Below are positions 7,298 to 62,771 of a DNA stretch of 64,000 nt, one piece after another. The notes below the pieces were generated by a model. It did no database searches. It saw only the letters and a list, made by a program, of their open reading frames with translations, and was not told the DNA's origin. The position numbers and the translations under genes were made by a program. Source of the DNA: a virus. The DNA lies in the IMG/VR virus record IMGVR_UViG_3300042514_001283, positions 1 through 64,000 of that record, one strand, 5' to 3'. Each line of letters opens with the position of its first letter. The stretch's first letter is position 1.

Positions 7298-7810
7298 CTA
7301 CCATGTCTCTTCTTGCCAAGTCGGAATGAAACGCCCATCCGATGTCTTCGTATAAAGCATTATAGCATCTCCCATTCTAGAACGCAAGTCTTGCTCTGTT
7401 AAAACGTTTCTAGGGGTAATCTTACCGTCTTTTCTCGGTCTACCACCATGTATAGTTGCCATAATGTCTCTAATCTCAAAAATGTGGTCTTCAGAATAAT
7501 AAGCATTAATTTGAAAACCTCTCTCTCCACCAATACTATCACCAATTGGCTCAGGAATCAAACCCTTTGCAATTATTCTTTGAAACTGTACTCTTGATCT
7601 ATTTAAAATTCTTGCAGTATTTGCAATTGAATAAGCTCTTTTCCTATGCTTTTTAAAATCTGAATACAGCATACTCTGTTCTTTACCCTGAGTTACATTA
7701 AAAAAATTAACAATATTGCTGCTTTTGTTAATATGAAAAACTTTTACAAGTTCTTTGTTTATAAAAAATATTTTTTTACAAGGATTTATTTTATCCTGTG
7801 GTTGAGACAT
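7298..7810 (-). CDS. Helix-turn-helix DNA-binding protein
   Basis: A 170-residue protein with a probable helix-turn-helix near residues 56-85: YSIANTARILNRSRVQFQR then a wing-like GLIPEP, resembling MerR/AlpA-type DNA-binding domains. The basic N-terminal 50 residues and the GRPRKDGKITPRNV segment could add DNA contacts. It is the first gene after the tail-fibre gene at 7820 and heads the replication genes, so it may regulate them or the late genes. It could instead be a replication-initiation or excision-type factor. The domain call is moderately sure, the target is unknown. Confidence 0.65.
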   Translation of the reverse strand: MSQPQDKINPCKKIFFINKELVKVFHINKSSNIVNFFNVTQGKEQSMLYSDFKKHRKRAYSIANTARILNRSRVQFQRIIAKGLIPEPIGDSIGGERGFQINAYYSEDHIFEIRDIMATIHGGRPRKDGKITPRNVLTEQDLRSRMGDAIMLYTKTSDGRFIPTWQEETW

Positions 7811-7819
7811 GTTCCCTGC

Positions 7820-8254
7820 CTAAGAACTAATTCTTTCACCAATTGCAATTATTGAAATGTCAGCTGAAAAAGCTCCAGAAGTTGCTGATGAAAATACGTT
7901 AACCTGACAAGAGTTTTGAGTAACTGCACTTAAAACTGGATATAAGTTTGATACACCAGTTATAGAGGTTACTGAGCATGTGACTACTGGAGTAGTTTTA
8001 AATATACCAGAGTAGTCAAATGAGGCTGGAGCATTTGGCTGAACAGACAAGTTTGCATCAACAATTTTTTGAGTCTCTGCATAGAATACTATGTTTGATG
8101 TTAATACTTGAGAAGGTGTAGCGGTATCTCTATATTTAATTTTTGAAAGCCTACTGGCAACTAGCTCTGAAACTCTGTTTATTTCTTGAGCTATTCTAAA
8201 TAAATAAGATATGTCAAGTGGTTGACCTCTATCTGGTAATTCAATTTGTGCCAT
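7820..8254 (-). CDS. Small virion protein, possible H-type lectin-like domain
   Basis: A 144-residue protein with a helical N-terminus (SYLFRIAQEINRVSELVASRLSKI), as used for trimerisation or attachment, followed by a beta-rich domain. The pattern F...TPVVTCSVTSI ... CQVNVFS ... ISIIAIGE resembles H-type lectin domains that end phage fibres, but the match is by eye. It sits at the end of the tail module, after the FG-GAP protein, with its own extended -10 promoter and a good AGGAGA ribosome site. It is probably a tip or fibre component that binds a host glycan. Confidence 0.5.
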   Translation of the reverse strand: MAQIELPDRGQPLDISYLFRIAQEINRVSELVASRLSKIKYRDTATPSQVLTSNIVFYAETQKIVDANLSVQPNAPASFDYSGIFKTTPVVTCSVTSITGVSNLYPVLSAVTQNSCQVNVFSSATSGAFSADISIIAIGERISS

Positions 8255-8271
8255 TTTTTCTCCTAAATTAC

Positions 8272-8280
8272 ATTATACCA
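8272..8280 (-). promoter_or_regulatory. Extended -10 promoter (TGGTATAAT)
   Basis: Exact TGnTATAAT in the gap after the FG-GAP gene, 17 bases upstream of the ATG at 8254. It could drive the lectin-like gene and the replication genes that follow. Confidence 0.55.
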
Positions 8281-8281
8281 T

Positions 8282-10081
8282 TTAAACATTAATAATTCCA
8301 GTATCAAATATTTTAAATAAATCATACACGCCTTGCACTGATCCAGAAATTCCTAAATAATCATCAAATCTTGCTTGATAGTCTGTAGCATCTTCAAAAT
8401 TTTCTATTCTAGGAACATCTTTTAATGCAACAGTTCCTATTGCTCTAAACTTATTTATATTTGATAAACTATAAATATTAGCATTACCATTAATGCTTAC
8501 TTCATCCGTTGTTGGAATTCCTAAAAGCAATGTTTTTCCATCTCCTGAAATAGAAACTGTGCGTCCAAAATTTTCACTATTTAATGAAGTATCTATGATT
8601 CTAAGTTTTTGAGTCCAATCTGAATTTAGTCTTGTAAATATATGACAACCTCCAGATTCTGTAGAAACTGGACCAGCTGTTGCACCTATTCCTAATGAAT
8701 AAAAACCTCCTCCAGAATTAGTTACAAAAGCTCCAACTGCAATAGTATTTCCATCATATGAAATAGAAAGATCACTTCCAAAATTATACTCTAAAAGATT
8801 TTCACTTGAGAACAACTTTGCTTGCTGTCTCCAAGTATCCCCAATTAGTGTATATACATAAGCAAAGTCTTTAGAGCTATAAGAGCTGGCTACAAAAGTT
8901 GATCCATCTCCAGAAATAGAAACTACTCCTCCAAAAAGATAACTTGATGTTGCATCTTCTGACACAATTTTTTGTCTTTCTGTCCAGGTTGTTCCAGAAC
9001 GAGTAAATAAATATACAGCACCGTTGTTTGTGTTTGGAGAAGTGCTTTCGTATGGAGCTCCAATTAAAGCTGTACTTCCATTTGATGAAATGTCAACTGA
9101 CAAACCAAAATTATCATTTGATGCTGCATCAGATGCTATAAGCTTTGCTTGCTGTGTCCAGGTTGTTCCAGAACGAGTAAATACATATGCAGCACCGTTG
9201 TTTGTGTTTGGAGAAGTATCTTCAAGGTAAGCTCCAATTAAAGCTGTACTTCCATCCGCTGAAATAGATGATGAGAATCCAAAAGTATCACTCGATGCTG
9301 CATCAGATGCTAGAAGCTTTGCTTGCTGTGTCCAGGTTGTTCCAGAACGAGTAAATACATATACAGCACCGTTGCTGCTATTTGGAGAAGTGTCTTCTCC
9401 AGTAGCACCAATAAGTACTGTATTTCCGTCTTCTGATATAGATACTGAGATACCAAAATTATCGGATGCTGCTCTATCTGATGGTGCAAGCTTTGCTTGC
9501 TGTGTCCAAGTTGTGCCAGAACGAGTAAATACATATGCAACACCTCCATAGGGAGTTGGACTTGCTGAGCCAAGATAGGCTCCAATAATTGCAGTATTTC
9601 CATCTGATGAGATAGATAACATTTGTCCGTATTGATCAAAAGTCTCTAAATCTAATGGAGTTAATTCTGAAATCTTGTTATAAGAACTTGTTGGAATTGA
9701 AACACTGCTAAAGTCTTCACTAACTCTTGCATGATATTCAAAATTTCCCATTACTGATCCTGATCCCCATTGAACAAATACGTCTGAGTTGTGTTGTTTA
9801 AAATTCTGAGAATGATTATGCGAAATTGATGCACTTGAAAGTGAAGCAGAATTGTTATAAATTATTGGAGTATCCCAAGTTAAACCAACCCCGTCTGAAG
9901 AAACTGTTGAAACAACGTTTGACTCTAAAGGTCTATATTGACCAATACTTTTAATTATATAAAGCTGCGACCATGCTGACCATTGGTTTTTGTCAACAGA
10001 TATAATTCTAAATTGAAAAGCATGATCTCCATTTTTATCTGGTGGGGATAATTTTTCTACAGGAATTCTTATCTCTGCCAT
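8282..10081 (-). CDS. FG-GAP repeat beta-propeller tail protein
   Basis: A 599-residue virion protein. The N-terminal 130 residues look fibronectin-like (FQFRIISVDKNQWSAWS). From about residue 139 come seven copies of the FG-GAP pattern [FY]G-x4-SIS-x-[DN]G-x-T-x4-G, each followed by a hydrophobic strand such as AVYVFTRSG, which together should fold into a seven-bladed beta-propeller like integrin alpha heads and some adhesins. Repeats 1-4 are nearly identical in protein and DNA (174-bp period). The C-terminus is a short separate domain. Start ATG overlaps the upstream TAA. It probably contacts the host surface at the tail tip. Confidence 0.8.
   Translation of the reverse strand: MAEIRIPVEKLSPPDKNGDHAFQFRIISVDKNQWSAWSQLYIIKSIGQYRPLESNVVSTVSSDGVGLTWDTPIIYNNSASLSSASISHNHSQNFKQHNSDVFVQWGSGSVMGNFEYHARVSEDFSSVSIPTSSYNKISELTPLDLETFDQYGQMLSISSDGNTAIIGAYLGSASPTPYGGVAYVFTRSGTTWTQQAKLAPSDRAASDNFGISVSISEDGNTVLIGATGEDTSPNSSNGAVYVFTRSGTTWTQQAKLLASDAASSDTFGFSSSISADGSTALIGAYLEDTSPNTNNGAAYVFTRSGTTWTQQAKLIASDAASNDNFGLSVDISSNGSTALIGAPYESTSPNTNNGAVYLFTRSGTTWTERQKIVSEDATSSYLFGGVVSISGDGSTFVASSYSSKDFAYVYTLIGDTWRQQAKLFSSENLLEYNFGSDLSISYDGNTIAVGAFVTNSGGGFYSLGIGATAGPVSTESGGCHIFTRLNSDWTQKLRIIDTSLNSENFGRTVSISGDGKTLLLGIPTTDEVSINGNANIYSLSNINKFRAIGTVALKDVPRIENFEDATDYQARFDDYLGISGSVQGVYDLFKIFDTGIINV
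8960..9570 (-). repeat. 174-bp direct repeats inside the propeller gene
   Basis: The motif gttccagaac and its surroundings recur at 8991, 9165, 9339 and (one mismatch) 9513, exactly 174 bp or 58 codons apart. They encode successive propeller blades and are much more alike than the other blades, which indicates recent duplication or homogenisation. Confidence 0.85.
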
Positions 10082-11286
10082 TAAATAACTCCTATGCCAA
10101 ACCTATATTCTACATAGCTTGTAGAATTTTCTCTCTTTAAAATTGGATTTTGATCTAATGTTTTTACATGTTCAGCAGCAACAAGAGAGTATAGAGGGTT
10201 ATAACTAGAAATATTCTCAAACCTTATTCCATCATAAAGTACAAAATGTTGTCCAGTATTAACATTAGAATCATTATGAATACATGTATAAATTCTTATG
10301 CCATTTATAGAGCTCCAAGAAAAGGTTGGATCTGTTGTAAAATCTGACAAACTTTTTGTAACAACTTGATACCTTGAATTATCTAGTGAAGCATCTGGAT
10401 TTAACACATCTACATCTTGAAGTGCAATGTTTACATAGGCTTTTGGTGTAGAGTTTGTTGAATTATTTAAAAACTCTAGTCTGATTTTAACATTGTCTGG
10501 TGCTGATGAATTTGCACCTAATCTAGCAGTACTAATTACTGAAAATGCTAATTTTATTTTATCTGTTGGTAAGTTCTTTCCTAAGTTTAAACTAATAGAA
10601 TTATTTTCAATATAATATGAAGCACTACTAGAAGTATCTATTAAAGACGAGCTTGCAGATACTCCAGAAACCACAGAAGTGCTTCCAGAAACAAGTAAAC
10701 TTTTATCTAAATATCTTGGAGGCTCTGCCCTATTTATTCTATCTGAATATTCAAATATTGGAGAGTTGCTATTTATAAACACAAAGTCTTCTAGTGTATA
10801 AAAATTACCTGGCGTAATTTCATGTAAGGTTTCAATGTCTCCAGCAACAACTTGGTCAATTCTAAGAGGACCAATATAAGAAACAGTTCCAGACTCATCA
10901 AAATTATTAGAGTATGCCCAAGGTTCTGAATTGCTAAATGTTGAAAGAATTCTGCTGTCAAAATTACCAGCTACTGCATTTACTGCTGCTGGATATATTC
11001 CAAGTTCAGTTATCTGATATCTTTGTTCAATAGGAAGCTCTGCTTTAAAAACAATTTTTTCAACGTACTCATTTGTTTCTGGATCTAATTCTTTTAAAAG
11101 ACCTTTTGATAAAACTGGAACCCTTGCTACCTCAAACTCTAAAGACTGCACACTTGCAGAAAATGTTGCAGAAGAAGATGTTGGGTAAGCTTTTCCACCA
11201 ACACCAATTGCAATATGACTTGCAAATTCTGGAGCCTGGTTTAAAAGATATTTTGCTACAATGTTTTTACCGTTTGTTGTAATCAT
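10081..11286 (-). CDS. Tail tip or baseplate-like structural protein
   Basis: A 401-residue beta-rich protein. The N-terminus (TTNGKNIVAKYLLNQAPEFASHIAIGVGG) resembles small tail or fibre-base proteins in which a helix precedes an SHIAIG-type strand; the rest is serine- and asparagine-rich beta structure with a jelly-roll-like segment around 200-370. No catalytic motif was seen. It overlaps the upstream gene by ATGA and the downstream propeller gene by TAATG, so it is part of the tail-tip set. Exact role is unknown. Confidence 0.6.
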   Translation of the reverse strand: MITTNGKNIVAKYLLNQAPEFASHIAIGVGGKAYPTSSSATFSASVQSLEFEVARVPVLSKGLLKELDPETNEYVEKIVFKAELPIEQRYQITELGIYPAAVNAVAGNFDSRILSTFSNSEPWAYSNNFDESGTVSYIGPLRIDQVVAGDIETLHEITPGNFYTLEDFVFINSNSPIFEYSDRINRAEPPRYLDKSLLVSGSTSVVSGVSASSSLIDTSSSASYYIENNSISLNLGKNLPTDKIKLAFSVISTARLGANSSAPDNVKIRLEFLNNSTNSTPKAYVNIALQDVDVLNPDASLDNSRYQVVTKSLSDFTTDPTFSWSSINGIRIYTCIHNDSNVNTGQHFVLYDGIRFENISSYNPLYSLVAAEHVKTLDQNPILKRENSTSYVEYRFGIGVI

Positions 11287-12155
11287 GATTCCACCTTATA
11301 TATTGTACCATTTGTGTCTATGAAGACCTCTACCTGCTGGTTTTTTTCCAAGTTAATAAGCTCTATAACCAAGTCACCATTTGTGTCAATATAACAATGC
11401 CCTTTTTCACGAGTAATTAATACATTATTTTCATCAAGATATTGATAAGTTGAATCTAAGTTTTGTAAAATTATATAATCTTCTTGAGGTATCTTATCTT
11501 CAATATTAATTGTATAAATGCTAGTAAGAGGCTTAAACTTGTCCATAGGACTTAATTGTTTTCCTGCGTCATACTTTTTTCTTACTTCAGATAGGTTTGA
11601 AATAATTGAGTATCTTTGATTAATTCCCTCAATAGTGTCATGTCTTTCAATTATTGATAATTCTATTGCAGAAATATTTTCAAAAAGTAGTTTTTGTATT
11701 TGTTCCGCATCAAACTGTGGCACTAAAGAAGATATGTCTGTAACATTTCTTGGTGCATTTCTAACAATATCAACAGGAATTGGATTCTGTCTAGGAATAT
11801 CTGGGGTTGGATCCATAGGTGTGGTATATAAATTATCATCATCAGGAAAGCCAGTATTTGTGGGTCCAGGAGTTTCTGCTACAACTGTTGGCGGAGGCGG
11901 AGGCGGAGGCGGTGGTGGAGGAGGGGGAGGAGGCGGTGGTGTAGAATCATGAGCATCCCTTACTGGAATTTTTTGTGCTGCTTTTAAAGCTGCGGCTTTT
12001 TCTGCTGCTTCTCTTGCTTTAGCTCTAGCTGCTTCATCTGCTCTTGCTTTTGCTGCTCTTGCTGCCTCTTTAGCCGCTGCCTCTCTTGCTGCTTCAACAG
12101 CTTCACTAGCTTTGGTACTATTTTTTTTCTTTAAAGAATCTGCATACTCTCCCAT
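11283..12155 (-). CDS. Tail protein with Ala-rich coil and Pro17 linker
   Basis: A 290-residue protein in three parts. Residues 15-68 are an Ala/Lys/Glu/Arg-rich helix likely to be a coiled coil. Then comes a run of 17 consecutive prolines, a rigid spacer whose translation normally needs EF-P. The C-terminal 150 residues form a mixed domain with beta hairpins (YIILQNLDSTYQYLDENNVLITREKGHCYIDTNG). It sits between two tail-tip genes with a strong GGAGGTGT ribosome site. A structural spacer or linker in the tail tip is likely; no enzyme motif was found. Confidence 0.6.
   Translation of the reverse strand: MGEYADSLKKKNSTKASEAVEAAREAAAKEAARAAKARADEAARAKAREAAEKAAALKAAQKIPVRDAHDSTPPPPPPPPPPPPPPPPPTVVAETPGPTNTGFPDDDNLYTTPMDPTPDIPRQNPIPVDIVRNAPRNVTDISSLVPQFDAEQIQKLLFENISAIELSIIERHDTIEGINQRYSIISNLSEVRKKYDAGKQLSPMDKFKPLTSIYTINIEDKIPQEDYIILQNLDSTYQYLDENNVLITREKGHCYIDTNGDLVIELINLEKNQQVEVFIDTNGTIYKVES
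11889..11939 (-). repeat. Proline homopolymer tract (17 codons)
   Basis: Seventeen consecutive CCN codons using all four synonyms, so the run is kept at protein level and is not a simple DNA slippage product of one codon. Confidence 0.9.
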
Positions 12156-12156
12156 A

Positions 12157-15100
12157 CTACACCTCCATTACTCTTAGCTGACTTTTAACATTTGAAGAAG
12201 ATCTTCCATATTGAGCAGATATAACAACAAATCTTTTATTCTCATCTACCAGCTTAACACCTTCTGGTAAATCAAAATTAATCTTAACAATATCTCCAAG
12301 TTGTACATGTGCTGTTGCAAAAGTGTCTATTTCAAATACTTTTCTGGGTTTAATAGTTTTATCAAGAATCCATTTCATAATATCTTTTGCAGAGTCTTCA
12401 TTTTGAATATACACAGAATCAATAGAAAACGATTTACTTCCATAAGTTGATCTACTATTTTTAATACTATCATATATCTTTTCAGATCTTCCTGGAGAAA
12501 CAATTAAATTATTGTTAGTGATAGCTGGATCAGAGAAGTTTGACAGTTCTCTAAAGTAGTCATCAACTGTTAAAACATTAGAGATATTTTGAGTAAATGT
12601 AATTCCTTGAATCATAATTCTATTTGAAGAACTTTCACTTAAATCTATTGCCTTGTCTGTTGTATTAAAGATTAAGAATTCAGCTCCATAAGATCCTGGC
12701 AAAAATCCTGAAACTTGATAAGATTTTTCTACAGTAAATGGAGGAACAATTTTTGCTATTAATGCTGGGTATGCTTGATCATATTTAATATTAAAATATG
12801 CACACTCTCTCATTATTGTGCCAAACTCTTCAAAATAAAAATCTACAGTTGGCTTTGTTTCTGCACTAATAGAGGATAGGTATGTATTTTGAATTGCTGA
12901 TGGAAGAGAATACTTTCTTAAAGATTCAGCAGATATTGTATTATTTACCTTTTCTCCTAAAGAAACATCTTCTTCTCTTATATTTTTTAAAGCAAAAATA
13001 TTTTCAAACATACACTTAGAAGATCCTCTTGTAAATAAACAAGTCTTTAAGCCACCACTTGGCATTTGTAGGGGGTTATTATCAGAAACTGTTCCAAGCA
13101 ATACATTATTTAAATATATATAAAAGTCAATTCTATAAATTCCATTTGCATTTCTTTTAATATCTGTATCTAAAGATATGTCGTACACTGCTGCCTCTTG
13201 AGAGGTTAGTCTATCAGATCCAATAAATTTTCCTTCATCAACAAGAATTCTTACAAGATGCCCCCAAAGTTTTTTAGGAACTGCAATATTTGTTTTTCCA
13301 GCTACTTGTGTAGAGTATGGAGTTCTTTCTACTTTATAAAAAATTATATTTTCAAGAACTTGGTCGTCTGGAATAAGTCCAGAGGTAGCAACTAGTTCGT
13401 TATTTTCATTTAGCCTAAAAGGTACTCCACTTTCACTTTTGTCTGAACCGTAGTACTTAAGAATGTCTTCAGTCATGGATGCTATTTCAAGATAATAGCC
13501 AGAGTTTGTATTTGGATCAACCATATATCCAATTCCACCAGCACCTCCAGAAAGGGTTGTAATGTTTCCCTCTGGAGTATTTTTACCAATTGTAAAAAGG
13601 TCTATTGAATTTAAAGCAGACTGTGTTTTATCATCTTTTATTTTTCCAATAATCCTCATTCTTGTTCCAACGTGCCTATAATCTGTATCTAAATCTTTAT
13701 AAACATAACTTATTAAGTCTTTACTATCTGTTTGACTTAGTTCTGTATTTTCTAAAGATGGAACTGGGTATGGTCCATTAAATATTAATGCAGACGATTG
13801 AATTCCTGCAACGTCTTGTTGACTATGACTGGAAAATCCCTCTGATCTTGTTGACTTCTTCATAAAGTTAGCAATCTTACTGGTTATTGAAGATTTTTCT
13901 TGTGAAGCTGTATCGTTGCCAAGGGGGGTTGCTGCAACTGAATTAGATACTGGATCATGAGTTAAAAATTCTGTTGGAACATTGCTAAATATGTTTTTAG
14001 AATCCATTCTAAAAGATTTTCTATTATTTGAATCTTCCCAATAAGAATTTAATCCAGCATTGTGGGCTGTAATAGCTGTTCCAAACTGACCTCTGCCATG
14101 AGACCTAACTTCTCCATTTTTATATTTAACATTTTCTTCTAAATCATCAAAGTTAGCCCCAGATGCATTTTCATAATATGGTTCTGTATATATTCTAAGA
14201 AGACCCGTTAAAACCATTTTTCCATTAAAGACTAGCTTGGAAAAATATTTCTGGTACTCGTTATTATTTGTTATCCAAACAAGACCATTTGTTGCAGAAG
14301 CAGATGGAGAATCTACCTGATATTGCTGTGCATCATATCTTATAATTTCTCCATTGGCAAATAAATACCCCTGAAATCTTGGCAACCAAAAAGCACTTTC
14401 TCCAACATCAATTGTATTATTTACTATTTGACTATTTACAACAGTTGGCACAGCACTTCCAAGACTAGTTCCTAGCGGGACTGCTCCAAGTGCATATCCA
14501 ACATTTGCTGTTGGCTGGTTTATTGTTCTTGCTTCTTGTTGATCTCCAAGTTCCCAAAGTATTGCACTTTTATACCCATATGTTCTTTCACTAAGACTTA
14601 AACTAGCTTGCTCTAACTTTGATACTTCTCTTTGTATATATCTAGTTGTATAGTTAATTTGACCATCATTTAAGATCTTTGTTTCAAAACCCGAAATAGT
14701 TTCAATGTTTGGAACAATACTATCTGTTTTTTGCCCATAAAGAGTTGTCAATCTTTCAGATATTGCAGAATTGTCATCTCTTACAGAAACATCTGGCATC
14801 AAATATTCTTTTGGCATAATTACAAAATTATTATACTCGTCAAAGAACATGGCGGTCTGAGTAGCCTGTGCAAGTCTTTGTAAAACTTCTGCAACAGAAG
14901 CATCTGGCTCAACAAAGAAAAATGGAATTACTGGATCATTTGCAGTATTAATATTTTTAAATACATAATTGCTAAAACCAATATTGTCTAGTAATAAGGC
15001 GACTGCTTTTGTAAGTGTTGAGTTCTGTAAAAATATTGAAGTAGCCTTACTAGATTCTAATATAAAATAAGCATCTCTTAAGTTTAATGAAACATCTTGC

Positions 15101-16647
15101 ATCCCACTAGTAGCAACTGGAGCATTTTCTGAATAAAATGTCTTTAATGGAATAAATTTGTCATATCCATATACATTTAAAATGGACTCATAAAAGTCAA
15201 ACTTAATTTGTGGCTTAAGAATATTAGCAATGAGACTTCCAGATCTAGTAGCAGTGTCAAAAACATTTAACTCTGTAAAAACCCCATCGTGGTTTGAAAG
15301 ATTAATTCCTCCAGTTGAGGCTACAAGTCCACCAACTGGTAAGCCAAAGTCTGTTGCCATGAGGTTTTTATTGATTTCATAATCTAAAACGTAGTCTGTT
15401 ATGTCAACTTTTAATCTTGGAGATATTTCAATTAATTCAAAAGGTTTGTTAGGAGCATACATTGTTTCTACAACAACTCTAATTCCTTTAATAAAAACAA
15501 AGTCTCTATATATATCATTACTTCCAACACTAAAATAGTCTGGGTTTAATATTTTTTTAATTAATCCAACTCTTTTTGTATCATCTTCTTCTAATAATGA
15601 AAATCCATATTCTACATTATAAGTTTTCCACTCTTCATCTTGTTGACTCCAAGAGTAGAGTGTTCCTGGCTGAGTAGTTGAGCTTCCAACTATATAAGAG
15701 TCTCCATCTTTAACTCCTAATCCTGAATTATAAACACTTGGATCTGGAAGTTGATCTATTGTATCGATGTATTGGTATAGATGAAAGTTTGTTTTAAATT
15801 GCTCTGGTATTTTTACTCCATAGTAAACCTCTACATGACCATCCCATGGAACGATTCTTGAACCATCTCTTCTTATAGAGCTTTCGTTAAAACTTACTGC
15901 ATCTATCCAGTTATTATCAATATTAAGATATTGAATCTTCCATCTTTTTGGAACTGATGACTTTGTAATATTTTGAAGTGGATCTGTTACTAAACTATTA
16001 TTAAATCTAGTTATTGTTGGAACTAAAGACTCTCCATTAACTCCGACTGCTGATGGATCTGCCAGATTAGTTTGCATTTTTACAACTATTCTGTTTGTAG
16101 CAACCTGATTTTTATAAGTAATAAAAGGAACACAATCATTTATTTTATATGAAGGGTCTTCAGTAGTAAAAAATGTAGCAACCTGACTTGATATACCAAA
16201 CTCTTGTCCGTTTTCTTTTCTATAAGAATTCCAATATTTAAATTTATCAAATCTTGAACAAAAATAATATCTTGGTCTTCTTCCAGATCTAATGCTATCT
16301 ACAAACTTTGTATTGTTTATATTTGATTCTCCAAAATAAAGAATCTTATTAATTCCTGACCTTGGTCTAAATGGTTTAATACAGTCCTTTAAGGAGTAAT
16401 AAAGTTCTCTACTTGTTTCTGCTGAGTAAAAAGTTAAAGGCTCATTTGGATCTTCTGTTTTATATTGAGAAATATAATTAGAATCTAAAGCATTGGTATA
16501 AACATCTGCGTTATCTTGAGAGTCATACTCTGGATATAAACTTCTATAAACAACGCTTGCACTATCTGGTCTAAATCTATAATTTCCATAATTTTCAAGG
16601 TTTAATAAATCATTTTGATTCATTAATACTATTGGTTGTCTCAACAT
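12157..16647 (-). CDS. Large minor tail protein (tail tip)
   Basis: A 1,496-residue virion protein encoded right after the distal-tail-like gene, the usual position of the tail-associated or hub protein of siphoviruses. It is beta-rich and low in cysteine, with a central part carrying hub-like elements (residues about 400-720, including SVAEVLQRLAQATQTAMFFDEYNNFVIMP) and a LamG/concanavalin-like region around 1000-1170 (KLWGHLVRILVDEGKF ... CLFTRGSSKCMFENIFALK). No peptidase or lysozyme motif was recognised. The start is uncertain: ATG at 16647 lacks a ribosome site, and ATG at 16623 is an alternative. Confidence 0.7.
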   Translation of the reverse strand: MLRQPIVLMNQNDLLNLENYGNYRFRPDSASVVYRSLYPEYDSQDNADVYTNALDSNYISQYKTEDPNEPLTFYSAETSRELYYSLKDCIKPFRPRSGINKILYFGESNINNTKFVDSIRSGRRPRYYFCSRFDKFKYWNSYRKENGQEFGISSQVATFFTTEDPSYKINDCVPFITYKNQVATNRIVVKMQTNLADPSAVGVNGESLVPTITRFNNSLVTDPLQNITKSSVPKRWKIQYLNIDNNWIDAVSFNESSIRRDGSRIVPWDGHVEVYYGVKIPEQFKTNFHLYQYIDTIDQLPDPSVYNSGLGVKDGDSYIVGSSTTQPGTLYSWSQQDEEWKTYNVEYGFSLLEEDDTKRVGLIKKILNPDYFSVGSNDIYRDFVFIKGIRVVVETMYAPNKPFELIEISPRLKVDITDYVLDYEINKNLMATDFGLPVGGLVASTGGINLSNHDGVFTELNVFDTATRSGSLIANILKPQIKFDFYESILNVYGYDKFIPLKTFYSENAPVATSGMQDVSLNLRDAYFILESSKATSIFLQNSTLTKAVALLLDNIGFSNYVFKNINTANDPVIPFFFVEPDASVAEVLQRLAQATQTAMFFDEYNNFVIMPKEYLMPDVSVRDDNSAISERLTTLYGQKTDSIVPNIETISGFETKILNDGQINYTTRYIQREVSKLEQASLSLSERTYGYKSAILWELGDQQEARTINQPTANVGYALGAVPLGTSLGSAVPTVVNSQIVNNTIDVGESAFWLPRFQGYLFANGEIIRYDAQQYQVDSPSASATNGLVWITNNNEYQKYFSKLVFNGKMVLTGLLRIYTEPYYENASGANFDDLEENVKYKNGEVRSHGRGQFGTAITAHNAGLNSYWEDSNNRKSFRMDSKNIFSNVPTEFLTHDPVSNSVAATPLGNDTASQEKSSITSKIANFMKKSTRSEGFSSHSQQDVAGIQSSALIFNGPYPVPSLENTELSQTDSKDLISYVYKDLDTDYRHVGTRMRIIGKIKDDKTQSALNSIDLFTIGKNTPEGNITTLSGGAGGIGYMVDPNTNSGYYLEIASMTEDILKYYGSDKSESGVPFRLNENNELVATSGLIPDDQVLENIIFYKVERTPYSTQVAGKTNIAVPKKLWGHLVRILVDEGKFIGSDRLTSQEAAVYDISLDTDIKRNANGIYRIDFYIYLNNVLLGTVSDNNPLQMPSGGLKTCLFTRGSSKCMFENIFALKNIREEDVSLGEKVNNTISAESLRKYSLPSAIQNTYLSSISAETKPTVDFYFEEFGTIMRECAYFNIKYDQAYPALIAKIVPPFTVEKSYQVSGFLPGSYGAEFLIFNTTDKAIDLSESSSNRIMIQGITFTQNISNVLTVDDYFRELSNFSDPAITNNNLIVSPGRSEKIYDSIKNSRSTYGSKSFSIDSVYIQNEDSAKDIMKWILDKTIKPRKVFEIDTFATAHVQLGDIVKINFDLPEGVKLVDENKRFVVISAQYGRSSSNVKSQLRVMEV

Positions 16648-16674: not shown

Positions 16675-17262
16675 TTATACTTCCTCAAGAGAAATAGAAA
16701 TATCCCAAAGGTCGTGGTTAGTTCCGCCTCTTTTAATAACATTATAGCTAAAGTCTGAAACAAATACTTCTAGGACATCTGAATACTTGCTAAGATTTTC
16801 GTAAGGGTTTGAATAAAAATTCTGGGGTTTGTCATAAGATAAAAACATATAAAAAGATCCAGGATTTGAGCTATACCAGTCTAGAAGTTCTGCACCACCT
16901 GCACCACCGTCTGCTGTATACTCTGTTAATGAAGAGTCTGTTGCAATTCCATTTTCGTTAAATTCCTGGTTTCCATCAAATGATCTGGAAGGAATTAGGT
17001 TATAAGAAAAAGATACATTCATTTTATCTGCAATATGATAAGAACGCATATGACCATTTACCATTCTTTTTCTATTTTCAAGTCTATTAGTTTTAAAACT
17101 AATGTCACTTCTATTATGATCAGAAAGGATTACAAAGTCTTCTTTTTCTACTCCAAAAATTTGTGGAACACCGTCTAAAATTCCATCAGAATTCTTAGAG
17201 AAAATAACTGCCTGTGGTCTTATCCACTTCTTTCTACCATTTAAATATGCACTACTAACCAT
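16675..17262 (-). CDS. Distal-tail-like minor tail protein
   Basis: A 195-residue protein directly after the tape measure gene, the standard position for a distal tail protein that caps the tube and carries the tip. It is beta-rich (DISFKTNRLENRKRMVNGHMRSYH, VSFSYNLIPSRSF, VLEVFVSDFSYNVIKRG), and the ending SFYMFLSYDKP...DLWDISISLEEV is typical of tail-ring proteins. The assignment rests on position, size and fold-like pattern. TAATG overlap couples it to the tape measure gene. Confidence 0.6.
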   Translation of the reverse strand: MVSSAYLNGRKKWIRPQAVIFSKNSDGILDGVPQIFGVEKEDFVILSDHNRSDISFKTNRLENRKRMVNGHMRSYHIADKMNVSFSYNLIPSRSFDGNQEFNENGIATDSSLTEYTADGGAGGAELLDWYSSNPGSFYMFLSYDKPQNFYSNPYENLSKYSDVLEVFVSDFSYNVIKRGGTNHDLWDISISLEEV

Positions 17263-20200
17263 TAGTATCTACTACTCCTTAAATTCCCTCTATTTTGTTG
17301 AGAAAGTTTTGCCATAACTACATTTGCAATATCATCTGGCGATGCATTTGTTCCAGATACGTTTACATTTACGTTATATGTACTATTATACATTGGTGAG
17401 GAGGTTGAAACAACACTTGTGTTAGCTACTGGAATATTAGATGCGCCATTTGATGGTACAGAGTATGTTGGAGAACCTATTCCATCTAAGAAATTATTTT
17501 TTGGAATTCCTTGCACCCCACCCATTCCAGGGAATACTTGACTATTTAAAGATTCTAAGAATCCTCTGTTTTTATCCGCTACTGGTTTTCTAACAACAAA
17601 TTCTCCAGGAGTTAGTAAGGCTCTAACCTTGTCTGTCATACCTTTTCCAGGAACGGTGCTTCCATAATTCATTCTTATTGCTGGAGGGGCTTCTGTTGAT
17701 CCTCTGTAAGCTATTCCACCATTTGCCATTTTTGCTATTGATCCACCATAATTTTTTAATTGTGGCATACCTATTGTTTTTGCAAAAGCGTTATAAGAAG
17801 CTTTGTAGTCTGCAAGTGCTGCTTGATCTTCTTTAGAAAGTGGATTCTTTTTAGTATTCGACTTAGTTAAATCTTGAATAGCTTGTTTCTGAGCCATTAA
17901 GAACATTCTTGTTTCTACTTTTTCACGTTCTTTTGCAACGTCTCGTTTTCTTTCTTCAAATCCTAGTAAAGTATCTTGTACACCTTGAAGGTCAATTCCC
18001 TTCTTATAAATTCTATCTTGAATTGTTTCTATTTCAGATTCAATGCCCTGTCTTGTCATTAATTTTCCATTTATAGAAACTGTTAATGCATCTAAATCTA
18101 CTTGTCTTTGTTTTTCAAGTGCTGCTCTAGCATCTTCAATTTGATATTGTGCAGATTGTTGTTGCATGTCGCCAGCTATACCTGCTGCTCCTGCAATGTC
18201 TCCAGAAGCAAGGGCAGAAGCTAAACTAATTCTAGACTTTTCTTGCTCATTAACTCTTGAATTTGATTCTGAAACTTTGTCTAACGCCTCTACCCTTAAG
18301 TCATAAGACTTATTGACAGCATCTTCTTTTTTAGAAAGTTCTTCTAGTCCCTTTTGTCTTAGGCTAACCTGTCTTTCTTCTAATTCAATTTCTCTATTTA
18401 ATTGCTTAGCTCTTTCATTAAATCCTTCTGCTTCTTTATCAATAAGCATTTCTTGAAGTCTAAATCTTTCCATAAGCATTTTTAATAGATCTGCAAGTTT
18501 TTCTTTATCTTTTCCATCGCCAGTAGTTGAGCTACCAGGCTGCAATGATTTAAATGAATCGCTAATTGCACCTTTAAAATCTGCCATTGCTTTTTCATTA
18601 TTTTTTTTATTAGCTGCTAAAGCAGCTTTATTCATAACTTCAGGGTCTCCACCAGTATACTGTTTAGCAGTTTTAATAACTTCCTGTGTCATTGTTATTT
18701 TAAAATTATAAACTAAATCTTTTTGAGTAACTGGATCAAGAGCCATAAATTGATTAACTTCATTTGCAGTTAATTCAAATCCAAGGGTTTTAAATAAAAC
18801 TTCTTTTGTAAGTGGGCTAGGAAAGTTTTCTATTTTCTGAGCAATATCATATAATGCAGATAGTTCCTGCTCTCCTAATGATTCAATTTGAACTCTCTTT
18901 GTTATATCTGGAATATTTTCAATAAAAGATATTTTATTTGCAACACGATCTAAAGCTGTTGTATCAGTTAAGTCTACTTCTCCAGAAGATACCATTTTTG
19001 ACAAGGCTTGACCACCCTGAATGCTTATTTGTCCTGCAATCATTTTTCCAAATATCTGTCCTGAGTTTAAAATCTCTTCAGAGCCAAATCCATCTTGAAT
19101 TCCACTAACAATCTGTGCTGCAAGAGTCTCATCCATACCTAAATCAATTATCTGTTGTTTAAATAGTTCTTTATTTTTAGACAATGCTGCAAAAGCATTT
19201 TTCCCTAAATTGTCTTGATCTCCTTCAGTAGTCATATCTGTATATTGTTTTTCTGTAAGTCTTTCTCCAGTTTTTGGATCATACCCAGTCTCTGTTGCAG
19301 TTTTTATATAAGAAAATCTTTCAGCTTTTTTAACTAAATCTTCGTTAGAACTGAATCCAAATGCTTTTGCATTTGCATTTGCAACATCTTGACTCATCTT
19401 TTTACTTGCATCACTAATTGCTAAAGTTTGTTTGTTATATTCTTCAAGAGTTATAGCTCCTTCTTGTACTGCAAGATTCAATAACGACCTTGCCTCTGCT
19501 TCTTTTTGTAAAGCCTGTGCATTTATATTTGCAATTGCAGATACAGTTTGCTCTTGCTTGTAAGCATTTTCTCCACCAAAGAAGAACTTTTGTGCCTTTT
19601 GTAAAGGATTTAAATCATCGTACATTTGTTGTGCATCAGACATCAACTTTCTACTATCTATTTGTGGAGTGATCTCTGCATTAATTCTTGCAGCATCAGT
19701 AAGCAAGTTTTCTCCATCTTTTCCAATTAAAGCAGTCATTTCTCCAACTATTCTAATTGAAATACCCTTATCATTTATTGCAGTTCCTAAATCACTTGCA
19801 ACAGCTGCAGCCTCTTCTGGAGTAAGTACTCCAGCCATAATTGCAGAAGTTAATTGATTTCTTATTGCAGTTGCTGCATCTCCTCCAGACTTTTTAATGG
19901 TTTCAATATCTAGCAACATCTGCTTTGCAGCATCTGTTTTCATAAATTCACTAGAAGCTTGTTCTGCTTCTGGAGATATTTGAGACTTTAAAGCTGCTTC
20001 TACAGATGACTTTTTAGACAGAATTGCATTTGTTTCTCTTCCAAACGCTTCTCCTATTGCTTTTGTTTTTTCTGCAGATCCATACATTGCATTTGTTAGC
20101 TCTATTGAAGCCTTTTTTGATTTTTCTACCGAATCCCCAAGAGACTTTAGAGCTAAACCTGCAGTAACAAGCCATCCTACTGGACCTGCAAATTTAGACA

Positions 20201-23200
20201 TTAGTGGAATAGCCTTTCCAAGAGATGGTGCAAATTTTGCTAGACCCTTTGAGACTAATCCAGTATTAGAAGATGCCTCAGCTGTAATTAATCCAAATTT
20301 TGATACAGACTTTGTTAAAACTTTTGACGCAGCACTTGATGCAGCCATACCTGCTACCATTTGTGCAAGTTCATTATCTACTCCAGCTTTAGAAGCACCT
20401 GACATTCCAGCAGAAAATCCTGCAAATCCTCCAATCATTGGAAGTGCTCCAGCAATTTTTCCAACTATTCCACCTTTTGAATATCCCTTAACTTGACCAC
20501 CATTCATCATTTCAAGAATTCCCTGATTTTGACTAGCTGCTTTCTTGTTTACAACAAACTCTCCAGGAGTGAGCATAGCTGGAACGGTATCAGCATTTCC
20601 ACTGCCTGAAACTGATCCGCCATTTGCATATTTTTTAATTGCTCCACCTTTATTTTTATTTTGAATAACTTGTGCAACTCTTTCTGTAAATGGTGTCGGA
20701 GTTGTCGTATGTGCAAAAAGACTATTTTCTTTTCTAGACCCAGAAAGTCTTCCAATTATAACGCTAACTCCGTCTTTATTTGTTAAAACTATTCTTCCAG
20801 CAGATGTGCTTCCTCCTGATCGTTTAGAAAGTCCAGCAGCCATCCTTGTCTCATTAGTATTTGCCCCAATCTGCCTAGAGAAATCATTCCAAAATTCTTT
20901 AGCATTTTTATTAGCAGACAATTCTTTTTTAATAATATCGTCAGAAATTTCCCATAGGGGGTTATTTTTATCTCCAAGCATTGGATTTTTTTCAATTTTG
21001 CTAAAATAAGTTGACTCCACTATGTCTGATATTCTTTTTGCTTCTCCCTTGGAAATTTGCCCAGAACTTTCTAATGCATTAAGAAATTGTCTAGTAGATG
21101 TAGAGTGTACTGCACCGCTTGCCATAGCCCCAGATCTCATTAAGTCTGATGGAAGTTTTCCTTGGGTAAGAAGACCATTCAATCTTTCTCTAGATATCTT
21201 TCCATTAGAAACAAGATCTGGATATTTCTTTAACATAGCTGGATCAACTATATCTCCCACATAAACTCCAGCGGTTCCTTTAGCTTGATATCTAGTACCC
21301 TTTCCTTTAAAAAATGGATTAAGCTTCATCATTTGATCTGCATTAAGTCGCACCTTTGATAAGTCAGCTGCAACTCCCAATTGAGACATGGTGCTTCTTG
21401 AGCTACTACCAGCCTTGCTTATACTTCCATATCTTGTTAATAGAGATACTAATTTAGGATCTTTAATATTTTTAATAAAATCATCAATACTTCCCATACC
21501 ACCTCTTCTTACTATGTCAAGAATTGATCTTGCTTGGGATACAAGTGCACCCCTGTTTAAATATTGAACTCCGCTAGCCACCCCACCTTTATTAAGTCCT
21601 TGAGTTTTTCCATCATTGATTGATTCAAGTAATTCAAGATTATTTTTAGTAGCTTCCTTGTTTATAACAAACTCTCCAGGTGTTAGCATAGCTGGTACGG
21701 TATCTGTGTTACCAGATCCTGGAACTCCACCACCAGAATTTCTTCTTATACCTCTTACTCTAACTGTACTAGTTTTTCCTTGTTTTGCAGCAGCACCTGC
21801 AGCACCAGCAACTCCAAAAGCTGGCAAGTTTGATGCTGCAGTCTGAGTAGCAGCCATTGCGGAATATGCTCTTGTTAGATTTGCAATAGCGGTAGTAGCT
21901 GCATTTGCTGTTCCAACTTGTTTAAGAAGTGTAGTATTTAAAATTTGACTTGCTCCAGAAAGTTGTTGAGCAGCCATTGCTGCATCCATTTCAGCAAGAC
22001 TTAAATATTTGGAACTTTGTGTAAGAGCTTTTACTGCTCCTACTGGACCACCTGTAATAAATCCTTTTCCAAATAAAGCCATTCCCTGACCTATTTTTGC
22101 AAGAGTTCCAACAAGGTTTAAGAATAAACCAGCCATCATTGTGACTGCTGGAATAACCACACCGACAATCACCGCAGCAATGGCAGCAAATCTTTTTTGA
22201 CCATCTGATAGTCCATTAAAAGATTCTGCAATCTTTGTTGCAAAGTTAACTAGTGGAATTGCTAGTCTAACAAATATTTCTCCAATAGGAGCAATTGCTA
22301 ATTTAAATCTTTCTACTGCCCCTGTTAATTGCACACCAAAAGATTCTTCAATTGCTTTTAATTCTTTGTCTGCAGTTGCACCAAGCTGTTCTGTGCTATA
22401 CCCCATTGTTGCAATTACCTGTTGAGCTTGGGATCCTTCTCTAGAAATATTTTCAAATAGTGCTCCAAGTTTTGCATATTGAAATTTTCCAAATACCTGT
22501 TCAAGTGCCTGTTGTCTTGAGAACTGATCAAGTCCCTGCAAAGCTTCTGCAAAAGATCTAACCGTACCCATAAGGTCTCCCTTATTTGCTTCAATAATAG
22601 ATTGAAGATTTATGCCCATACTACCCAACATCTCATTTGCTTGTTTTGTTGGGTTAATCAGAGAGGCAAGACCAGACTTTAAAGCGTTAGCACCTTCAGC
22701 AGCATCTACACCACCTTCTTGCATTGCTGCAAGGAATACTGTAAGATCTTTTACGTCTCCACCAAGACCTTGAATAACTGGTGCAACACGAGGAATAGCA
22801 GTAGCAATATCTTGCAAGGAAACAACTGTTTGGTTTTCAACCATATTTAAAAAGTTGATAGTATCTCCAAGTTCTTTTCCTGATAATCTAAATGCAGATT
22901 GTAAAGAGATTGTTGTTTCAAGTGCTGCATTTTGATCCATTTGACCAAGTGTTGCAAGTCTTGTTGCCTGAGTTACTGCATCAGTAAGTTCTGCATCTTG
23001 TCTACCAGCAGCAGCAGCTTGGGCAGCAAGACCAATAGTATCTTTTACTGCAACTCCATATTTTGTATATTCTGCTGCAAGACCTTTTACTGCTTCTAGA
23101 TTTTTATTTAATTCTGCTGGAGTTGTAAAAATATCTCCATATACCTTTTTAAATGCAACCGCTTGTTTTTCAAGTTCCATAAATGTTTTACCAGCCATCG

Positions 23201-23786
23201 CTCCAAATATTGTAAGAGGGACTGTGAAACCAACCATAAGCTGACGACCAGCCCATTGGACATTTTTACCAAAGTTAATTAGCTGGGTAGTACCCTGCTT
23301 AAACATGTTAGAAAGTATTTGAGTTTTTTGAGCAGCTACCGCTGCTTGTGAAGAAAATGCAGCAAGTGGTCTAACTGCTAAAGCATCTTGAAATCCATTT
23401 GCAGCACCAGAGGTTGCGATAAATTGTGTCTGAAGTCTCTTTGCTCTTTCTGCAGCAAGTGCCATAGTCTCTGCTGCAACGGCACTATTCTTATTAAACT
23501 TTGCACTAAAAAATTGCCCAAGGGAAGTTTTTCCTTTGGACAAAGTTTTATCTAATGTGGCAGCAGCAGTTTGAAGTCTTATGGTTTCAGCAGTGAATAG
23601 TCCAGTCTTATTTATTGCACTTTGCAATTCTCTAGAGTATTCTGATGCAAAAGTGCCCTGTGCCTTATTACTCTTGTTAAGAGCTAAATTAAAAGCATTA
23701 ATCTGGGTTTGCAAAGCTTGAAGTTGAGACGCAGCACCACCTGTATTAATCTCAATATCAATAATGCCTTTTGCAATTTCAGCCAT
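17262..23786 (-). CDS. Tape measure protein
   Basis: A 2,174-residue protein that sets tail length and is injected with the DNA. Residues about 200-450 match the PhageMin_Tail/TP901 tape measure domain (IPRVAPVIQGLGGDVKDLT ... QQALEQVFGKF). Hydrophobic segments near 187-205 and 529-566 could insert into the host membrane. Three copies of a GSGNxDTVPAMLTPGEFVxNK motif occur at about 686-725, 1055-1092 and 2044-2085. A separate roughly 330-residue domain lies between copies 1 and 2. Residues 1760-1970 form a long coiled coil. At about 1.5 angstrom per residue the tail would be roughly 300 nm, an estimate from general tape-measure scaling. Confidence 0.95.
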   Translation of the reverse strand: MAEIAKGIIDIEINTGGAASQLQALQTQINAFNLALNKSNKAQGTFASEYSRELQSAINKTGLFTAETIRLQTAAATLDKTLSKGKTSLGQFFSAKFNKNSAVAAETMALAAERAKRLQTQFIATSGAANGFQDALAVRPLAAFSSQAAVAAQKTQILSNMFKQGTTQLINFGKNVQWAGRQLMVGFTVPLTIFGAMAGKTFMELEKQAVAFKKVYGDIFTTPAELNKNLEAVKGLAAEYTKYGVAVKDTIGLAAQAAAAGRQDAELTDAVTQATRLATLGQMDQNAALETTISLQSAFRLSGKELGDTINFLNMVENQTVVSLQDIATAIPRVAPVIQGLGGDVKDLTVFLAAMQEGGVDAAEGANALKSGLASLINPTKQANEMLGSMGINLQSIIEANKGDLMGTVRSFAEALQGLDQFSRQQALEQVFGKFQYAKLGALFENISREGSQAQQVIATMGYSTEQLGATADKELKAIEESFGVQLTGAVERFKLAIAPIGEIFVRLAIPLVNFATKIAESFNGLSDGQKRFAAIAAVIVGVVIPAVTMMAGLFLNLVGTLAKIGQGMALFGKGFITGGPVGAVKALTQSSKYLSLAEMDAAMAAQQLSGASQILNTTLLKQVGTANAATTAIANLTRAYSAMAATQTAASNLPAFGVAGAAGAAAKQGKTSTVRVRGIRRNSGGGVPGSGNTDTVPAMLTPGEFVINKEATKNNLELLESINDGKTQGLNKGGVASGVQYLNRGALVSQARSILDIVRRGGMGSIDDFIKNIKDPKLVSLLTRYGSISKAGSSSRSTMSQLGVAADLSKVRLNADQMMKLNPFFKGKGTRYQAKGTAGVYVGDIVDPAMLKKYPDLVSNGKISRERLNGLLTQGKLPSDLMRSGAMASGAVHSTSTRQFLNALESSGQISKGEAKRISDIVESTYFSKIEKNPMLGDKNNPLWEISDDIIKKELSANKNAKEFWNDFSRQIGANTNETRMAAGLSKRSGGSTSAGRIVLTNKDGVSVIIGRLSGSRKENSLFAHTTTPTPFTERVAQVIQNKNKGGAIKKYANGGSVSGSGNADTVPAMLTPGEFVVNKKAASQNQGILEMMNGGQVKGYSKGGIVGKIAGALPMIGGFAGFSAGMSGASKAGVDNELAQMVAGMAASSAASKVLTKSVSKFGLITAEASSNTGLVSKGLAKFAPSLGKAIPLMSKFAGPVGWLVTAGLALKSLGDSVEKSKKASIELTNAMYGSAEKTKAIGEAFGRETNAILSKKSSVEAALKSQISPEAEQASSEFMKTDAAKQMLLDIETIKKSGGDAATAIRNQLTSAIMAGVLTPEEAAAVASDLGTAINDKGISIRIVGEMTALIGKDGENLLTDAARINAEITPQIDSRKLMSDAQQMYDDLNPLQKAQKFFFGGENAYKQEQTVSAIANINAQALQKEAEARSLLNLAVQEGAITLEEYNKQTLAISDASKKMSQDVANANAKAFGFSSNEDLVKKAERFSYIKTATETGYDPKTGERLTEKQYTDMTTEGDQDNLGKNAFAALSKNKELFKQQIIDLGMDETLAAQIVSGIQDGFGSEEILNSGQIFGKMIAGQISIQGGQALSKMVSSGEVDLTDTTALDRVANKISFIENIPDITKRVQIESLGEQELSALYDIAQKIENFPSPLTKEVLFKTLGFELTANEVNQFMALDPVTQKDLVYNFKITMTQEVIKTAKQYTGGDPEVMNKAALAANKKNNEKAMADFKGAISDSFKSLQPGSSTTGDGKDKEKLADLLKMLMERFRLQEMLIDKEAEGFNERAKQLNREIELEERQVSLRQKGLEELSKKEDAVNKSYDLRVEALDKVSESNSRVNEQEKSRISLASALASGDIAGAAGIAGDMQQQSAQYQIEDARAALEKQRQVDLDALTVSINGKLMTRQGIESEIETIQDRIYKKGIDLQGVQDTLLGFEERKRDVAKEREKVETRMFLMAQKQAIQDLTKSNTKKNPLSKEDQAALADYKASYNAFAKTIGMPQLKNYGGSIAKMANGGIAYRGSTEAPPAIRMNYGSTVPGKGMTDKVRALLTPGEFVVRKPVADKNRGFLESLNSQVFPGMGGVQGIPKNNFLDGIGSPTYSVPSNGASNIPVANTSVVSTSSPMYNSTYNVNVNVSGTNASPDDIANVVMAKLSQQNRGNLRSSRY

Positions 23787-61061: not shown

Positions 61062-62771
61062 TTATCCAAATACCTGTATTGCTATTATGAGCTGAGCGTC
61101 ATCTGATGTTGGTGTTGGACCAGGATCTCCTTGTGGTCCCTGTGGTCCTTCTGCTCCATTTACTCCAGGTACTCCTTCTACTCCATTTAATCCAGGATCT
61201 CCTTGTGGTCCTTGTGGTCCTTGTGGTCCTTCTGGTCCCTGTGGTCCTTCTGCTCCAGCTGCTCCATTCATTCCACTTAATCCAACTTCTCCATTTAATC
61301 CAGTTAGGCTAACATCACAAGTATTTGATTCCCACATAGCTGTAGGTTGTTGAATAATATCTACAGTATAGCTATTAGATCCAACACTTGATATATTTCC
61401 AATAATATTTCTAGATGCATTATAATATGTAGGTAATGGTGAATTAATAGTATCTCTTTCAAAAATCCAACTAGAAGTAACTGTTGGTGAGGCTGGAGCA
61501 GTTAGTGTCTGAGGGTATCCAGTAATTACTGTTCCAGAGACAGTGTCTACAAAAAGTTGAATTACCCATCCAGATCCATTTGCAGCACTTGCTGTTATAT
61601 ATTGATTAGGATATATGTCCATAGGGGAAGAAGTATTAAATGTTACGGGTTGGTATTCTAAAGATGCTGAATTTAATGCACTAGCTGATGTTGCTGAAGC
61701 AGAAAGGACTGGATTAAGTTCTCCAACATCATAAATATTTTTAAGTTTTACATTATCTCCTACTGAATATGCATAATCATTAACATCTACATAAACTAAT
61801 ACATCTGAACCAAAATATCCAGGTATAGTTCCAAGAGCTACATCCGTTGTAGCATTTAATAGATTAAATCCTTTTGCTGCAGACTGTGCCTCTAACTTTG
61901 TTGCATATATTGTAGAAGCATTTATTTGTGTTAAATATGTAGAAGAGGCATTTACCTGTGTTAGATAAGTTGAGGATGCTGTAGAAATATCTAATTTATT
62001 TCCAAGAGCTGTTGTAATTGTGGAAGCATAGTTTGCATCGTCTCCAAGGGCTGCTGCAAGTTCGTTTAGAGTATTTAATGTAGATGGAGCTGAATCAACA
62101 ATTGCTGCAACTGCTGCTGCTGATGCACTTGATAAATCAATATTATTCAATTCCGTTTTTGTTGCATATGTTGTTGAGGCAGAAGAAGCAGAAAGTTTAG
62201 AATCAATTTGGGTCTGAATGGCACTTGTAACTCCATTAAGATATCCAATTTCTGTATCAGAGACATCTACTACCCTAAGTTGAACTGTTCCAGTTTGATC
62301 TGGAAGAGTAATTGTTCTATCAGCAGTTGGCTCACCTGGCTCTAAAGTTGTTTCAAATTCATTTGCTGTTGTACCTTCAAAAATAATATTATGTGGTGCT
62401 GGAAGATATATGCCGTGAATAGTTGGTGTTTGCCCAATAGCAGTAATTGCTGGTCCATTAATTGTTGGAGTAGTTAAAGTTTTATTTGTAAGTGTTTCTG
62501 TTTTTGAGGCAGTTGATTTATTATCTAATTGTGTTTGAATGGCAGAAGTTACACCATCTAGGTATCCTATTTCAGTATTAGAAACATTTGCAACTATTGT
62601 TTGATATGTATTTGAAGCACTTACTTTATTAAGATATATAGCACTTGCTGCGGAAGTTTCTAAATAATCAGCAGTTAAATCAATACCAACAATATCCCAA
62701 GCGGTTCCATTAAATTCATATCCATCAAAAATTTGACCAACAGAAGCGGATCCAGGAAATATTGTAGCCAT
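61062..62771 (-). CDS. Tail fibre with collagen-like C-terminal stalk
   Basis: A 569-residue fibre. It has repeated shaft units ([21 protein letters not shown] twice; [18 protein letters not shown]), a [23 protein letters not shown] helix-like unit shared with the 63359 protein, and a beta region. Residues 491-553 are 21 uninterrupted Gly-X-Y triplets ([19 protein letters not shown]...), a collagen-like triple helix, followed by a 16-residue end. A trimeric fibre is therefore likely. It has its own extended -10 promoter. Confidence 0.85.
61113..61301 (-). repeat. Collagen-like GXY repeat, 21 triplets
   Basis: Codes for 21 consecutive Gly-X-Y triplets at residues 491-553 of the fibre protein, with the DNA repeating ggtccttgtggtcc-type units on the plus strand. 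Confidence 0.85.

Follow-up and report, generated by a model that had tools for sequence, protein, structure and literature searches.

A predicted FG-GAP propeller in a hairpin loop of a phage minor tail protein: apparent gain, loss and exchange of the whole domain at a blade number that looks fixed

A phage gene that encodes a propeller from tandem blade repeats raises the question of which of its features differ between related phages: the number of blades, the sequence of individual blades, or the presence of the propeller as a whole. The gene considered here lies in a window of 64,000 nucleotides (the whole stretch of DNA that was analysed), taken from a virus record of 67,981 bases, a metagenome-derived contig. 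Its features and those of its neighbours are listed in Table 1.

Table 1. Features of the tail region of the window and of the propeller gene. Positions are those of the window; L002 is the second contig that carries the propeller.
Feature	Position	Strand	Basis
Tape measure	17262-23786	-	ORF and family match
Minor tail protein	12157-16647	-	ORF and family match
401-aa tail protein, upstream of the propeller gene	10081-11286	-	phrog_9983 tail protein match
599-aa minor tail protein with inserted FG-GAP propeller	8282-10081	-	ORF; PF14312 match
N-terminal scaffold, residues 1-134, putative fibronectin-III-like strand pattern	9680-10081	-	Orthologue identity; beta strands in models
Propeller, seven-bladed FG-GAP, residues 136-540	8462-9676	-	PF14312, blade HMM, orthologue alignment, model
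Blade 1, diverged (57-62% DNA identity to blades 2-4)	9503-9676	-	Blade alignment
Blade 2 (78% to blades 3 and 4)	9329-9502	-	Blade alignment
Blade 3 (85% to blade 4)	9155-9328	-	Blade alignment
Blade 4, with 6 of the 10 internal differences from L002	8981-9154	-	Blade alignment
Blades 5-7, diverged	8447-8980	-	Blade alignment and comparison to L002
C-terminal scaffold, residues 541-599, common to propeller-less orthologues	8285-8461	-	Orthologue alignment

The structural genes of the window are on the minus strand and, according to the ORF list and profile matches, encode a portal, a protease and a head protein, followed by the tail proteins. The propeller gene is found near the end of the tail module, after the tape measure and minor tail genes and before the replication genes. 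It is followed by a gene for a 144-aa protein with no family match, then by smaller genes and one for a DnaB-like helicase. Elsewhere in the window, a 290-aa protein (11283-12155, minus strand) includes a run of 17 prolines behind an alanine-rich charged stretch, and a 569-aa protein (61062-62771, minus strand) with a C-terminal collagen-like stretch is a possible further fibre or adhesin. At the protein level, Streptomyces phages are the closest of the named phages, with identities of approximately 51% for the DNA polymerase, 53% over about half the length of the head protease, and approximately 30-32% over 44% for the tail protein (in the 15 of 42 records that were listed). NootNoot, a Streptomyces phage of the nearest group, is classed in the Stanwilliamsviridae. 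The host may be an actinobacterium, a guess that follows from these protein matches. Searches for a close isolate returned a single 49-base match (megablast with 24.9 kb) or no match (tblastn with a 1213-aa protein). The gene was also considered as the target of a diversity-generating retroelement and this was rejected, as an RVT_1 search of the 67,981-base record, which may be incomplete, found no reverse transcriptase.

A 29-bp block is present at positions 8981, 9155, 9329 and 9503, 174 bp apart and with 0, 0, 0 and 2 mismatches, respectively (mean count in 100 shuffles 0.00), and a 48-nt motif occurs in seven copies in the gene, in an array with a 174 bp period. The initial annotation had described four blades that match almost base for base at this spacing. 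The spacing and the block were as described, but the likeness of whole blades was not: blades 3 and 4 share 85% DNA identity and blade 2 shares 78% with each of them, while blade 1 is only 61, 62 and 57% identical to blades 2, 3 and 4, respectively. Hence three blades (2-4), not four, are close over their full length, and the fourth copy, in blade 1, is mainly the common block at the blade junction. The comparison of blade DNA bore out the description of blades 5-7 as diverged. The repeat array is genuine but less extreme than first described.

The protein matches the Pfam FG-GAP_2 family (PF14312) with 251.3 bits against a cut-off of 23, in six stretches. A blade HMM, built from the window's own blades and iterated on the same fetched proteins, found seven blades, which together with the seven copies of the 48-nt motif upheld the earlier identification of a seven-bladed propeller. 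An AlphaFold2 model of the 599-aa protein (34-row alignment, mean pLDDT 71.3) contains the propeller at residues ~132-545, where ten-residue blocks mostly have pLDDT values of 70-97 and some loops fall below 60. The best Foldseek matches of the model were integrin-alpha chains, and VIA-align superposed it on integrin alphaM over 358 residues (Z 38.1, 3.1 A). A sequence search of solved structures using the propeller returned nothing at E 0.01. Giant-virus FG-GAP and collagen-repeat proteins were among the top viral matches in a structural search of BFVD with the model. Animal integrins have calcium-binding loops of the form Dx[DN]xDG. The window protein contains no Dx[DN]xDG motif, and as 4 of 42 viral FG-GAP ORFs include one, the motif is not defining for the phage group.

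The remainder of the protein corresponds to a much smaller one. Its N-terminal part is 61-85% identical to orthologues that lack the propeller, except for two distant ones of 149 aa (27.5% over this part). A typical propeller-less chain reads SIVIP-NGSASV-RVIGTVAL, and at the position of its 6-residue NGSASV loop the carriers have a linker, the propeller and a second linker. In a model of a 193-aa orthologue (mean pLDDT 64) the flanks of the insertion are neighbouring strands, 125-129 and 136-144, and in that of the 599-aa protein strands 124-127 and 544-553 flank the propeller. The alignment and the two models thus place the propeller as an insert in a predicted beta-hairpin loop of a tail protein of ~192 aa. 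The small scaffold may be fibronectin-III-like: FnIII chains were among the weak Foldseek hits of the orthologue model (best E 3e-3, TM ~0.3), and a Pfam search of the 193-aa orthologue gave no fn3 match.

Relatives were collected from IMG/VR with scans that each used six peptide patterns, and 53 loci were recovered with the 599-aa protein and 42 with the 401-aa neighbour. Among the 22 distinct complete proteins that share the N-terminal part, 20 (149-207 aa) lack the propeller and two carry it, a ratio that is the outcome of a pattern-based sample and not a population frequency. ORFs cut by contig ends were excluded from this count (L017, which has the loop and no propeller, and L051, which stops at residue 84). 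The two carriers are the window and a contig recovered as both L002 and L071. Exact-pattern scans of viral contigs for more carriers, in which near-copies of the window's own record were possibly left out, found only the L002 contig.

Identity between the two carriers jumps at the edges of the domain, at nt 392-408 and nt 1605-1625 of the gene. The N-terminal part is diverged (dN 0.109, dS 0.671), though residues 76-90 within it are encoded by a stretch that is 98% identical, and so is the C-terminal part (dN 0.141, dS 0.148). Over propeller residues 136-534, dN is 0.007 and dS 0.017, and residues 369-534 include no synonymous or nonsynonymous difference, with a synonymous change at residue 535 just outside. 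Between 18516 and 9695, most 250-column blocks of the two contigs have 68-90% identity, and values are lower at 12135-11695 and around the tape measure. From ~7800 down to 5453 identity is again ~99-100%. A different relative, L074, which has no propeller, is 99-100% identical to the window in DNA at ~7735-4336 apart from two 100-base blocks at 96-97%. Sharp recombination edges, with diverged sequence outside, are found near ~7800 (L002) and ~4340 (L074).

The phylogenies of the flanking regions disagree. In the tree of the 401-aa neighbour the two carriers are apart, with L071 flagged as a long branch, and an AU test on this tree rejected holding them together (p-AU 0.006), whereas a tree of the N-part DNA grouped them with support of 99/97. 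Given this conflict, the history may have been a single insertion with later exchange, insertion more than once at the same site, or replacement of the surroundings. A search of bacterial and archaeal genomes for a donor confirmed 86 loci, of which 80 were kept, and the best segments were 29-55% identical, with no direct donor among them. Judged from these comparisons, the feature that varies among relatives is the presence or absence of the whole propeller and, apparently, its exchange, and the propeller is most likely a cassette, presumably receptor-binding, that is exchanged between phages.

A second kind of variation was found within the propeller. Five edge sites (gene nt 408, 1605, 1613, 1624 and 1625) were excluded, and the 10 differences between the window and L002 in gene nt 409-1604 all fall at 744-1102 (clustering P 2e-4). 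For seven of the nine differences in blades 2-4, both states are found in sibling blades. The null means were 1.57 and 1.61 for the two starting sequences (P 5e-5 and 1e-4) in a simulation that assumes uniform substitutions. With siblings limited to blades 2-4, this applies to five of the nine (P 3.5e-4 and 5e-4). Blades 3 and 4 have also changed in parallel at offsets 79 and 161 (means of 0.022 and 0.023 under the null, P no higher than 1e-4), but four of the seven sibling-state sites are these two parallel pairs, so that the two tests are not independent. The differences seem to reflect sequence exchange between blades, with conversion as the putative source, and they rest on two metagenomic carriers, in which short-read assembly of repeats could blur them. 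Alternatively, blades 2-4 may have recombined with a related, unsampled propeller of a third phage. No single sibling blade supplies all of the changed states of blade 4, and the phages compared here are highly mosaic, both of which would fit an outside source. However, the differences are confined to blades that resemble one another, mostly involve states already present in siblings and include the two parallel changes, and we regard recombination with a third phage as the less probable of the two origins.

The propeller most likely binds a ligand on the host surface, to judge from its position, its patchy presence and the proteins at the corresponding place in other phages. Adhesins are often among the last tail genes. 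In NootNoot, the homologous tail protein is directly followed by a minor tail protein of 2000 aa that matches fn3, Phage_Tail_Tip and CBM_4_9. The distant relative L092 has at the corresponding place (8393-10621) a 742-aa protein with no propeller, a purple-acid-phosphatase N-terminal match just over the cut-off and sub-threshold matches to fn3 and S74, an intramolecular chaperone. These two proteins are related to each other, but neither has significant similarity to the 193-aa scaffold, so the parallel rests on position. The propeller could instead serve the tail as a structural part or an enzyme, in keeping with the finding that the scaffold alone is enough in 20 of the 22 distinct relatives. 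The location among the last tail genes, a patchiness that fits host recognition, and the carbohydrate-binding and S74-like matches of the proteins found at this place elsewhere all make a structural or enzymatic role unlikely, and host recognition may be under selection.

Mis-joined repeats or mixed strain variants could in principle generate such an array, as both records are metagenome-derived contigs. Two contigs with different flanks nevertheless contain the same seven-bladed gene with the same insertion edges, and any two of blades 1-4 differ at 15-43% of DNA positions, which makes an assembly artefact very unlikely.

It had also been proposed that recombination between near-identical blades alters blade number and thereby switches binding in the manner of a phase-variable locus. 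Exact stretches shared between blades reach 49 bases, and tandem near-identical stretches of this kind could recombine unequally. In the comparison of close relatives, which is limited to two alleles, both carriers have seven blades and the behaviour of a phase-variable locus was not seen. The count was extended to arrays in which five or more blades were strong and whose ORF did not run off the contig; open-ended FG-GAP ORFs were excluded. Of 96 such well-supported viral, bacterial and archaeal arrays, 68 have seven blades, 13 have 14 (two times seven), 14 have six and one has five; the 15 arrays with five or six may miss a weak blade. Among the 28 viral arrays, 22 have seven blades (counting both carriers, and with near-copies among the records), one has 14, four have six and one has five, while of the 68 bacterial and archaeal arrays 46 have seven blades, 12 have 14 and ten have six. 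Of the viral FG-GAP proteins, 37 were examined, counting the window, L071 and some near-copies, and 14 of them contain a blade pair with at least 75% DNA identity. Even the highly repetitive viral arrays have either seven blades (L003, L006, L010 and L011) or 14 (L014). With 81 of 96 arrays at seven or 14 and no number other than five or six in the rest, switching of blade number is highly improbable, and blade number looks fixed at seven. Two or more tandem FG-GAP genes are present in each of seven contigs (L003, L012, L013, L022, L036, L039 and L042), and in L014 a single gene (7512-10307) encodes two propellers' worth of blades.

How blades 2-4 came to resemble each other was examined by resampling codons from four genes of the window 1000 times with the protein sequence held fixed. 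For each of the pairs 2-3, 2-4 and 3-4, DNA identity exceeds what the protein requires (0/1000 resamplings reached the observed value), and matching residues use the same codon in 79-95% of cases against 48-49% expected. For the pairs that include blade 1, DNA identity was not significant (P 0.07-0.48), although the share of identical codons between blades 1 and 3 was (P 0.007). Constraint on protein structure as the sole cause of blade likeness, for which the FG-GAP motif residues common to all seven blades might speak, is thus barely tenable: it is rejected for blades 2-4, though it suffices for the overall DNA identity of blade 1. The excess of shared codons instead supports recent copying of blades 2-4, by amplification or conversion. 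The earlier suggestion of recent expansion or gene conversion therefore holds for these three blades.

Taken together, the gene probably encodes a minor tail protein with a propeller in a scaffold hairpin loop, subject to gain, loss or exchange of the whole propeller and to copying among blades 2-4. A seven-bladed FG-GAP propeller plugged into the beta-hairpin loop of the small scaffold would bind the host surface ligand. Among related phages it would be gained, lost or exchanged as a unit, with the recombination edges at the domain boundaries. Blades 2-4 would be the product of recent copying and may still swap short stretches, which would alter blade sequence while the seven-blade ring is kept. 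A two-tier form of diversification is possible but more tentative. Here the hairpin would act as a fixed socket in which the whole binding domain is swapped between phages near-identical in their replication genes, and conversion tracts in blades 2-4 would reshuffle residues within an unchanged seven-blade geometry.

The locus corrects the expectation that tandem blade repeats mean a variable blade number. It also brings together in one gene the amplification of propeller blades and the shuffling of domains in phage adhesins, both of them known processes. The relatives with and without the propeller, among them L074 with its nearly identical ~3.4 kb downstream, form a natural control. They would make it possible to study the effect, if any, of one inserted domain on host recognition, and to see if conversion between blades can diversify a ring of constant size.

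The propeller resembles the FG-GAP_2/integrin-alpha propellers (PF14312) in repeat motif, number of blades and fold, and differs in being inside a phage tail protein and in lacking the Dx[DN]xDG calcium motif. Proteins with an FG-GAP propeller region up to 36% identical are encoded by further phages, Vibrio phage nt-1 among them; one is annotated as an FG-GAP repeat protein, and the annotation of others is virion structural protein. None of them has the scaffold in common with the window protein, and no record covers 80% of the query. NootNoot gp194 (Stanwilliamsviridae) is comparable in its place directly after the homologous tail protein and in its combination of fn3 and binding domains. It differs in having carbohydrate-binding and tail-tip domains and no propeller, with no significant similarity to the scaffold. 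A literature search by title or start of abstract, mostly outside subscription journals, found no description of an FG-GAP propeller in a phage tail, and a second one, for domains inserted into receptor-binding proteins, found nothing. FG-GAP is mentioned 23 times in a prasinovirus paper (PMC11467894).

Both of the processes proposed here have precedents. According to Pereira and Lupas 2022 (PMC9218822), near-identical propeller blades are widespread, with viral members in the dataset, propellers have been amplified from single blades and local repetition of a few blades occurs. The recently copied blades of those highly repetitive propellers are the counterpart of blades 2-4, and the point of difference is an orthologous pair that suggests exchange of sibling states at a fixed blade number; the strings 'phage' and 'conversion' do not occur in the main text of that paper, even inside words. 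A further study (PMC10684548) describes recent fragment shuffling in phage host-interaction proteins, including tail fibres and spikes, and its main text does not contain 'propeller', 'FG-GAP', 'fibronectin' or 'FN3'. Ongoing mosaicism within a protein is common to that system and to this one, but the unit here is a propeller in a hairpin loop.
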